From Thermophilibacter mediterraneus (GTDB lineage: Bacteria; Actinomycetota; Coriobacteriia; Coriobacteriales; Atopobiaceae): a stretch of 64,000 nt of DNA. The position numbers and the translations under genes were made by a program. The notes beneath the pieces were generated by a model. That model was given only the letters and a program-made list of their open reading frames with translations, made no database searches and was not told the origin of the DNA. The stretch lies in the NCBI RefSeq assembly GCF_900119385.1, contig NZ_FPKO01000007.1, positions 62,001-126,000 on the forward strand, given 5' to 3'. Positions 11,005 through 60,840 of the stretch are shown here, piece by piece. The stretch's first letter is position 1. Each line of letters starts with the position of its first letter.

Positions 11005-11045
11005 CGTCCGAGCGGAGGGCCCCGCGACTCGCGCGCCTCGGATGC

Positions 11046-11276
11046 GTGCGGGTTGCGGACGGAACCGGGCCCGGAAGTGACCGCAAGTCGCACCTGATTC
11101 GGGTGCGTGCGGGTTGCGGACGGAACCGGGCCCGGAAGTGACCGCAAGCCGCACCTGATTCGGGTGCGTGCGGGTTGCGGACGGAATTGAATCGGAAAGT
11201 GACCGCAGCCCGCACGCCATCCAAGCGCGTGCGGGCTGCGGTCACTTTGACTAGGGGAACCGTCCGGAAGCCGCAC
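11046..11276. repeat. 61-bp-period hairpin array, locus 1 (four units)
   Basis: Four units begin at 11046, 11107, 11168 and 11229, exactly 61 bp apart. Each has a left arm gtgcgggttgcgg (or gtgcgggctgcgg) and an imperfect mirror such as ccgcaagccgcac, enclosing a ~22-nt loop that starts acgg and ends agtga. The loop of the fourth unit is in reverse orientation (tcactt ... accgt). The whole gene-free gap 11005-11330 is essentially this array. The same unit and period recur at 34281 and 60570. It lies between convergently arranged genes (GH36 and GH13). Confidence 0.85.
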
Positions 11277-11330
11277 GCACCCTGGGGGAGGGCGGCTCCC
11301 GGACGGCGGGAGGAGGCGTCTTCGCGGCGC

Positions 11331-21005: not shown

Positions 21006-21150
21006 GGTGCTCCCTTCCGATGAGGCGGACGTCTCCCCCTGCCCCTATGGTAGCGAAATCGATACCAGCGGGGTCCCGCGAGCACTATAGAACAAAGGAC
21101 AAGGACCGGCGAGAAGGACCCGCGCTCCCCGGCGCCCTGCGCCGGCCGGC

Positions 21151-21346
21151 GCGCACTCGAGCCCCTTCCTGTCCGGGCGGACACAAATCCGGCCGAGTGC
21201 GCGCCGACAACCGTGCACTCGAGCCCTTTCCTGTCCGGGCGGACACAGATCCGGCCGAGTGCGCGCCGGCAACCGTGCACTCGAGCCCTTTCCTGTCCGG
21301 GCGGACACAGATCCGGCCGAGTGCGCGCTCTGCCACGGGAGAGTGC
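21151..21346. repeat. 62-bp-period hairpin array (three units)
   Basis: Three nearly identical units begin gcactcgagccc at 21153, 21215 and 21277, exactly 62 bp apart. In each, gcactcg pairs with cgagtgc about 45 nt later and an inner stem tgtccg-gg-cggaca forms the tip. Degenerate continuations (gagtgcgcgcactc and similar) follow to ~21390. It lies upstream of gltB in a 615-nt gap without a credible gene. A dispersed-motif copy (ggcgagaaggac, 21108-21119) precedes it. Confidence 0.85.
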
Positions 21347-21420
21347 GCGCACTCGACGAAGTTGCGCGCAATCGCGCCGAATGCGCGCCTCCCGCCCTGG
21401 TGCGCCGCGCGCCCCCGCAC

Positions 21421-29639: not shown

Positions 29640-29663
29640 GACGACCCCTCCTTTGATGCCCTA

Positions 29664-29703
29664 TGACGACGTATACTATATTATACATAGTATACGTCGT
29701 CAA
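29664..29703 (-). promoter_or_regulatory. padR promoter overlapped by a perfect operator palindrome
   Basis: Arms tgacgacgtatacta (29664-29678) and tagtatacgtcgtca (29688-29702) are perfect mirrors with a 9-nt AT spacer. On the minus strand a -35 TTGACG (opposite 29698-29703) and a -10 TATAGT (opposite 29675-29680) are 17 bp apart and lie entirely within the palindrome. The inner GTATAC repeats recall PadR sites. The opposite strand has a weaker promoter-like match toward the ferric-type transporter. Confidence 0.8.
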
Positions 29704-29878
29704 CTGGCATTGGGGAGAGGGCGCCACGCGTCGCGCCTCCGGAGTGCAGGCGACCGCTCGGCGATTTCGTTCTGTCATAGTTCTGCAAGAAACGTTAAGA
29801 ACGTGTTAAGGCCTCTTCGACGAGGACTCGTTTGAGAGTGGGCCCGCGAGGGCCCGTCAGCGAAGGGAAGGTTGGACC

Positions 29879-31021: not shown

Positions 31022-31144
31022 CGCCTCCGCCCGCGCGTTCTTCTCGCCCGCCGCGGCGAGCCACGCGTGACCCGAGCCGCGCCGGGCGGATGCCCTCATC
31101 CGCCCGGCGCCCCTACGTAGGAAGACGAGTTGAAGGGGGTGGCT

Positions 31145-34280: not shown

Positions 34281-34452
34281 CGTGCGGGTTGCGGACGGTC
34301 CGGAGTCCAAAACCATCCGCAGTCGGCACGTATTTGAGGCGCGTGCGGCTTGCGGTCGAATTGGACCTAGAAAACGTCCACAACCAGCATGTCCCCGAGG
34401 CACGTGCGGGTTGCGGACGCTTTCCGGCACCAGACCGACCGCAACCAGCACG
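34281..34452. repeat. 61-bp-period hairpin array, locus 2 (three diverged units)
   Basis: Units begin cgtgcgg at 34281, 34342 and 34403, exactly 61 bp apart. Right arms are ccgcagtcggcacg, cacaaccagcatg and ccgcaaccagcacg, so pairing is imperfect and loops differ, unlike the near-identical units at 60570. A dispersed-motif copy (gccgagaagaac) follows at 34486-34497. The rest of the 576-nt gap holds a terminator (34010) and, at 34183, an ATG with a gaggagggg site whose frame runs into the array and is probably not a gene. Confidence 0.8.
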
Positions 34453-37873: not shown

Positions 37874-37958
37874 AACCTCACAGGTAGTCTTTCTATTCTC
37901 GTTATAACATTATGTACATAAGCCAGAAATTGACGAAAGAACCACTACCTGTGAGGTT
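37874..37958. repeat. 85-bp AT-rich element bounded by perfect 15-bp inverted repeats
   Basis: Ends are aacctcacaggtagt (37874-37888) and actacctgtgaggtt (37944-37958). The 55-nt interior is strongly AT-rich and contains the perfect palindrome ttatgtacataa (37910-37921). It lies in the 389-nt gap between the divergent polA and glnN genes. On the minus strand the interior offers a possible polA -10 (TATAAC). It could be a MITE-like element or a regulatory structure. The rest of the gap holds two dispersed-motif copies and a weak candidate promoter for glnN (aataat at ~38100). Confidence 0.65.
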
Positions 37959-40328: not shown

Positions 40329-40417
40329 CTGTGTCGCGCGGGTGTGCGGGCGGGGCCACGCTGGGTTGGAGCTGGGGTCACGGTGCGGCTGCGGGCGCGC
40401 GTGCACGCGAAAAGGTT

Positions 40418-40760
40418 GCGATTGGGTAGTCCCCGCAGAAAGGGGTGCGATTGGAAACCCCCCGGAGGGGTCCGCGATTGGGAAGTCCTGCCGGAAGGGG
40501 CCGCGATTGGGTAGCAAGTTTGATGTTGGCCGCCCGCTTGCATCAAACATGCTACCCAATCGGTGGGAGGAGCTGACAAATCTGGGGGTTCGACGGTTCT
40601 TCTCGACCGCTTGGGGCCTCTGAACATCAATTGTTATACCCAACCGAGGGGGTTTCCTCGCAAAATCGCTACTCTGGGCGACGCGACCGAGGGCAAATAC
40701 CCAATGGGAGGGCTTCTTTGACAGCGGGGGCGGCGACCGGCGGGACGACTACCCAAAGGG
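40418..40760. repeat. GCGATTGGGTA repeat array: four forward then four reverse copies
   Basis: Forward copies of gcgattgg start at 40418, 40447, 40474 and 40503 (spacing 29, 27, 29 bp), each followed by short C-rich/G-rich stem halves. Reverse copies ctacccaatcg, tacccaaccg, tacccaatgg and tacccaaagg follow at about 40552, 40637, 40698 and 40749. The innermost pair forms a 22-bp stem with one mismatch (40504-40525 with 40541-40562) and a 15-nt loop. Dispersed-motif copies in opposite orientation lie at 40268 and 40596. No gene is seen in 40252-40834. Confidence 0.75.
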
Positions 40761-60548: not shown

Positions 60549-60569
60549 GGCCGCGCCAGCCGAGAAGTA

Positions 60570-60740
60570 CGTGCGGGCTGCGGTCGGTTTCGTGCCCAGG
60601 ACCGTCCGCAACCCGCACGTTCCCCGAACACGTGCGAGTTCCGGTCGGTTTCGTGCCCAGGACCGTCCGCAACCCGCACGTTCCCCGAACACGTGCGAGT
60701 TCCGGTCGGTTTCGTGCCCAGGACCGTCCGCAACCCGCAC
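60570..60740. repeat. 61-bp-period hairpin array, locus 3 (three near-identical units)
   Basis: Units start cgtgcg at 60570, 60631 and 60692, exactly 61 bp apart. Units two and three are identical over their length; unit one differs at a few bases. Each runs from cgtgcgggctgcggtcgg or cgtgcgagttccggtcgg through tttcgtgcccagga to ccgtccgcaacccgcac. The motif gccgagaagtac (60559-60570) abuts the first unit and gttcttctcga (60752-60762) follows the last, in opposite orientation. No gene is seen in 60549-60867. Confidence 0.88.
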
Positions 60741-60840
60741 GTCTTCTTGATGTTCTTCTCGATGTGACTCCTGATGCCCTCGCCGTCAGCTTCCAGGAAG
60801 CGCCCTGATGGCAGACGCCGACCCCGGAGAGCCGTAGGGT

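Follow-up and report, generated by a model that had tools for sequence, protein, structure and literature searches.

Evenly spaced palindromic DNA repeats essentially restricted to the genus Thermophilibacter

REP and BIME elements are imperfect palindromes of 20–40 bp with a short stem and an unpaired GTAG or CGTC end tag, and they form regularly spaced clusters in which orientation alternates (PMC2817692, PMC3733652). In CGTC-tagged REPs that lack a dedicated transposase, CGTC is the unpaired end tag of a stem of 8–9 bp closed by a loop of 4–5 nt (PMC3733652). RAYT transposases or RNA hairpins are the usual explanations for REP-type repeats; both were tested here, and both fit poorly. Rickettsia palindromic elements (RPE) can sit in frame within protein genes, while the BOX elements of Streptococcus pneumoniae are dispersed, form hairpins and carry a variable number of copies of a middle module.

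The Thermophilibacter repeats resemble REP and BIME in being dispersed extragenic palindromes that lie at gene 3′ ends in convergent and tandem gaps, in regular clusters and with occasional copies inside genes (PMC2817692, PMC3733652). They differ in that the unit is 50 bp rather than 20–40 bp, carries no terminal GTAG or unpaired CGTC tag, and mostly keeps one orientation; in addition, there are two spacing classes and no adjoining RAYT gene. Since these repeats differ from REP in the size of the unit, in the terminal tag and in the link to RAYT, we do not call them REP. A conserved CGTC, the lack of an associated transposase, intragenic copies and species-specific families are shared with CGTC-tagged REPs (PMC3733652). 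Here, however, CGTC is the paired half of an inner core within a 50-bp palindrome. In-frame copies within a gene recall RPE, but the Thermophilibacter arrays are tandem, mostly intergenic and built on fixed steps. Unlike the modules of BOX, which belongs to an unrelated organism, the units are all alike and nearly symmetric. Loops that share a consensus, and linkers that are a single sequence in either orientation, speak against a CRISPR array. As for features of MITEs, some array ends bear CGAGAAGWA or TWCTTCTCG, usually on one side, and no duplication was seen at the luxS-mtnN site described below. Among publications on Thermophilibacter, judged by their titles, we found no description of such repeats.

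The window analyzed here, a 64,000-nt stretch of the Thermophilibacter mediterraneus genome (positions 62001–126000 of contig C3), holds three arrays, none assigned a strand. Named relatives of the tyrS gene of this genome likewise point to Thermophilibacter (Atopobiaceae). Array 1 (11045..11278) comprises four 50-bp units that start at 11045, 11106, 11167 and 11228 in the CGTGC register, between convergent melibiase-like and alpha-amylase-like genes. Array 2 (34281..34452) has three units with starts at 34281, 34342 and 34403, whose loops are unlike from unit to unit, and is flanked by convergent ABC-ATPase-like and RNase H-like genes. Array 3 (60570..60741; starts at 60570, 60631 and 60692) contains three near-identical units and begins 21 nt past the stop codon of a gene for a metallo-beta-lactamase fold. 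It is abutted on the minus strand by the flank motif CGAGAAGTA (60561..60569; TACTTCTCG as read on that strand), and the motif TTCTTCTCG lies on its opposite side on the plus strand (60753..60761). The first-pass annotation had placed ten units at these three loci; all were found there with every step exactly 61 bp, and only the register is one base off, 11046 being the G of GTGC and 34281 and 60570 the C of CGTGC. TRF also reports a period of 61 at 11038–11241 and 60569–60742.

Each unit had been described as a 13-bp stem around a 22-nt loop. The palindrome stands, but a more apt description of the unit is a near-palindrome of 50 bp that has a conserved GGACG-N16-CGTCC core. Its consensus in T. 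mediterraneus is CGTGCGGGTTGCGGACGGTTTCGGGCCCCAAACCGTCCGCAACCCGCACG, followed by an 11-bp linker that reads TGTTTGGGGTA in one of two orientations. The center is often GGGCCC and the outer arms are variable, with a mean deviation from the consensus of 9.2 of 50 positions per unit. In every unit listed (six species, one site), the starts of the GGACG and CGTCC half-sites are 21 bp apart. The notion of a constant step in differing copies holds insofar as loops, linkers and outer arms vary; the copies are nonetheless related, units of different arrays being 75% identical and those of one array 83%. Units were also thought able to flip, and this is borne out by the fourth unit of array 1 (11229 in the earlier register), which is inverted relative to unit 3 and matches its neighbor at 37 of 50 positions when inverted versus 31 of 50 directly. 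A perfect 22-bp inverted repeat spanning the linker between units 3 and 4 (11196..11248, arms 11196–11217 and 11227–11248) is the mark of this inversion. Units follow one another head to tail, and neighbors elsewhere in the genome mostly share an orientation: four of 54 pairs match better inverted, three of them weakly, by only 3 positions each, and the near-symmetry of the unit blurs its orientation.

Array ends often bear CGAGAAGWA or TWCTTCTCG, mostly at one end only. The GAGAAGAAC-type flank motif is about fivefold enriched in intergenic DNA generally, and for that reason we rejected it as a strong genome-wide tag of arrays. TTCTTCTCG is likewise enriched in intergenic DNA. At window positions 31038, 40269, 27691 and 44787, GTTCTTCTCG or its complement, in places in the form CCTTCTCG, lies 17–25 nt past a stop codon with no adjoining palindrome.

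The 13-mer arm GTGCGGGTTGCGG occurs 53 times in the T. mediterraneus genome, against one occurrence of the reversed control. A covariance model of one unit, a search proposed alongside the initial description, returns at least about 75 sites in the 2.37-Mb genome, each exactly 50 bp long, and arm scanning around these sites yields at least 85 units in 31 arrays of one to five units. These counts rest on model searches and the stretches of genome around the matches, and models of this repeat family miss strongly diverged units. Copies therefore lie well outside the window, and their spacing is not random: 52 of the 54 steps measure exactly 61 bp and the other two 60 and 72, steps within one array being non-independent. 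The density of arrays is uneven, with 10 in 1.27 Mb, 8 in 0.49 Mb and 13 in 0.59 Mb on contigs C1, C3 and C6 (chi-square P = 0.04).

Other Thermophilibacter genomes carry units whose outer arms differ while the geometry is kept. Steps of 61 bp account for 25 of 27 in genome G085 and for 12 in G094, which also has one of 71. All 17 steps in G104 fall at 70–72, as do 14 in G099 alongside two of 61, and G108 has 24 steps at 57–62 and 16 at 69–72, the classes sometimes being mixed in one array (71, 58, 58, 71). Pooled over ten genomes, 126 steps lie at 57–62, 49 at 69–72 and none at 63–68, with a single step of 122 that reflects a skipped unit. A scan for the core pair in which arm sequence plays no part, and in which steps may lie anywhere between about 50 and 80, gives, among the matches listed, 83 steps at 59–62, 16 at 69–73 and one at 75, a tally that leaves out four step-63 matches that look like one conserved coding sequence in four genomes. 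The constant step pointed out in the first-pass annotation is conserved genome-wide and across species despite changing loops, linkers and even outer arms; loop sequence, linker sequence and the pairing of arms are all kept less strictly. Among the matches listed in the same scan, the core-pair geometry is present in about half of the 31 genomes of the genus and, outside it, in only two of the same family within 398 Coriobacteriia genomes. The repeat family is essentially restricted to Thermophilibacter. Its presence within the genus is uneven, many of the genomes being draft assemblies: T. mediterraneus, G085, G089, G091, G094, G104 and G108 are rich in arrays, and G087, G088, G098, G106 and G107 gave few or no matches. 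This unevenness offers a route to the putative recognizing protein. The sole element-like match outside the genus, among those listed, lies in another genus of the family (G006:C6:21126-21202) and combines a core pair at a step of 51 with palindrome-like flanks.

Twelve of the 31 arrays in T. mediterraneus lie between convergent, 17 between tandem and two between divergent genes, so that 29 adjoin at least one gene 3′ end. Relative to other intergenic gaps in the same stretches, convergent pairs are in excess (Fisher P = 0.0005) and divergent pairs in deficit (P = 0.01); both values are approximate because genes were called simply from codon usage and the counts for the other gaps were derived by subtraction. 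Turnover between species is evident at the luxS-mtnN gap, which measures 8–10 nt in most species and holds palindrome arrays of unlike sequence in about eight; no target-site duplication was seen there. At one orthologous site, T. mediterraneus has five units and each of two relatives has two, within flanking DNA that is mostly 90–100% alike. For one array, repeats and flanking genes are both 90–100% alike in two species, so mobility is inferred from other sites. The gap between tyrS and the U32 peptidase gene was rejected as a conserved array site since its palindromes belong to families that differ from species to species. Several unrelated elements in that gap (L092-L115) have a common inner TTTTCCCAGTTGG motif.

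Units also occur in frame within a gene that encodes a YqeB-XdhC fusion. They are found in several species, and all steps read are multiples of three: 60 in T. mediterraneus, G085, G091 and G092 and twice in G108, and 72 in G104. Several unit-free species have a short GEKN/AEKN linker at this site. In some species the interdomain linker (L280-L307) carries tandem GEKN/AEKN tetrapeptides, which are in-frame copies of GCCGAGAAGAAC, a motif that flanks palindrome arrays.

Our preferred reading, to which we assign a probability of roughly 0.58, is that these genus-restricted intergenic palindromes behave like REP and BIME, inserting and multiplying as DNA, with their geometry kept by a putative protein that engages them as DNA. 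Arrays would insert, often beside a GAGAAGAAC-type motif, and would then be duplicated by whole units and lost again. A putative dimeric or multimeric protein, which might be a recombinase that moves the arrays or a DNA-binding protein, would engage each palindrome together with its neighbor and so preserve the spacing. Selection of the hairpins as RNA would be expected to match a change in one arm with a change in the other, which is not seen within the T. mediterraneus genome. Over the 14 outer pairs in T. mediterraneus (summed from the pair table), 963 Watson-Crick pairs are seen versus about 975 expected from independent arms, and in a subset of 31 units 83.7% of cells are paired versus 86.1% in shuffles; arm pairing within the genome does not exceed what chance would give at the observed conservation of the arms. 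Pair 15/36 shows a double variant once versus about eight expected from column counts, a deficit that we do not count as a claim in itself since related copies are non-independent. Between species, however, the arms co-vary, so that on this longer timescale symmetry is retained or restored, for which recognition by a dimer, correction by template switching and slow structural selection are three possible causes. Symmetric recognition of DNA would look the same as compensatory change between species, and the point weighs against the preferred reading to the extent that slow structural selection could also give such co-variation.

Transcribed hairpins that act between genes as terminators or stabilizers of mRNA 3′ ends would suit the location of arrays at gene 3′ ends, the T-rich TTCTTCTCG tail at many array ends and the tendency of most window units to fold as single strands better than shuffled sequence (7 of 10 with z below −2.5). 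The lack of arm compensation within the genome speaks against such a role, as does the near equality of G-T and A-C mismatches (34 versus 38) on the transcribed, sense strand of tandem arrays. A scan limited to loops of 3–8 gave no terminator-like match at either array 1 or array 3, and an Rfam search of the window gave no match. Strict spacing between hairpins would be unexpected, and the tolerance of in-frame arrays inside the YqeB-XdhC gene argues against strong termination. Because compensation is absent within the genome, G-T is not favored over A-C and no terminator was found at two arrays, an RNA-hairpin role is improbable, and the repeated RNA structure once suggested for this locus is not supported. 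Mobilization by RAYT (Y1) transposases, the explanation that the general REP-like habit of the repeats would invite, is less probable still. Y1_Tnp genes are present in 28 of the 31 genus genomes, three of them in T. mediterraneus, yet flanks of about 1.5 kb at 31 loci contain no unit, many of these loci have palindromes of their own and of a different type (AAAGGGGACAG), and G085, a 99% complete genome, has many arrays and no Y1_Tnp. The RAYT-like genes at L032 and L172-L199 are often flanked by short palindromes that share the AAAGGGGACAG motif. A gene of 345 aa between two close arrays (C6 449.4–450.4 kb) was examined as a candidate mobilizer and dropped, having no Pfam match and no transposase features that we noticed.

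Two further explanations concern the constancy of the step. Passive tandem duplication, in which a recently spread 61-bp repeat expands and contracts by recombination and the constant step is inheritance only, draws on the whole-unit change in copy number at one orthologous site and on the greater likeness of neighbors than of distant units (83% versus 75%). We regard it as unlikely, given that units deviate so widely from their consensus while the matches in T. mediterraneus are all 50 bp with 11-bp linkers, and given that two length classes are common to unlike linkers in several species. Somewhat less doubtful, and overlapping with the preferred reading, is a role as helically phased host sites, in which a protein dimer would bind each palindrome and cooperate with a neighbor on the same helix face, so that steps would be about 61 bp or about one turn more; the arrays might then be chromosome-organizing or insulator sites at gene ends, with phase as the cause of their geometry. 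Helical phase for a DNA-binding protein had been raised for this locus from the outset, and it remains plausible: there are two step classes 10–11 bp apart with 63–68 empty between them, the core half-sites are always two turns (21 bp) apart, both classes occur inside single G108 arrays, linkers of unlike sequence keep their length, and a single step of 51 is seen in another genus of the family. It sits less well with the fast turnover of arrays between species at one site, with their patchy presence in the genus and with the fact that, at 10.5 bp per turn, neither 61 nor 71 amounts to a whole number of turns. Linker composition, moreover, would yield the same classes. The linker is 11 bp in the ~61 class, often one flank motif such as TACGAGAAGAA, and 19–22 bp in the ~71 class, where 20–22-bp linkers are often two facing motifs, as in TTATTCTCG...CGAGAATAA of G104. 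The quantum may therefore be a helical turn or the difference between one and two copies of a flank motif of ~11 bp. In the latter case, the 10–11 bp between classes is motif length, and 50 bp plus one or two motifs, visible in many linkers, is a simpler rule that also fits; this account was conceived only after the two classes were seen. The relation between the classes rests on two modes only. Most linkers in T. mediterraneus are no longer motif-like yet still measure 11 bp, so that the motif account, too, calls for a length constraint or for recent copying. The most far-reaching possibility, which we consider rather unlikely, is that tandem 50-bp palindromes are read as a helically phased array by a protein that is specific to the genus and binds or recombines DNA. 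On this phased reading, neighboring units would lie on the same helix face, so spacing would be quantized at about 61 and 71–72 bp (perhaps also 51) and would outlast sequence; the in-gene steps of 60 and 72 would then satisfy phase and reading frame together. What keeps the geometry constant can be tested directly, since one site is available in filled and in empty form across some 30 related genomes.

The window contains other repeats. At 21147–21338, another tandem palindromic repeat, unrelated in sequence to the arrays (GCGCGCACTCGAGCCC...GGCCGAGTGCGCGC, center CTGTCCGGGCGGACAC), is present in three copies with a period of 62, beside a degenerate palindrome at 21345–21388. Direct repeats of GCGATTGGGTAG at 40409–40562 are followed by a 22-bp inverted repeat (40504–40525 and 40541–40562) in a long intergenic stretch. 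Two intergenic inverted repeats with arms of 21–24 bp and unrelated sequence are located at 29656–29710 and 37874–37958.
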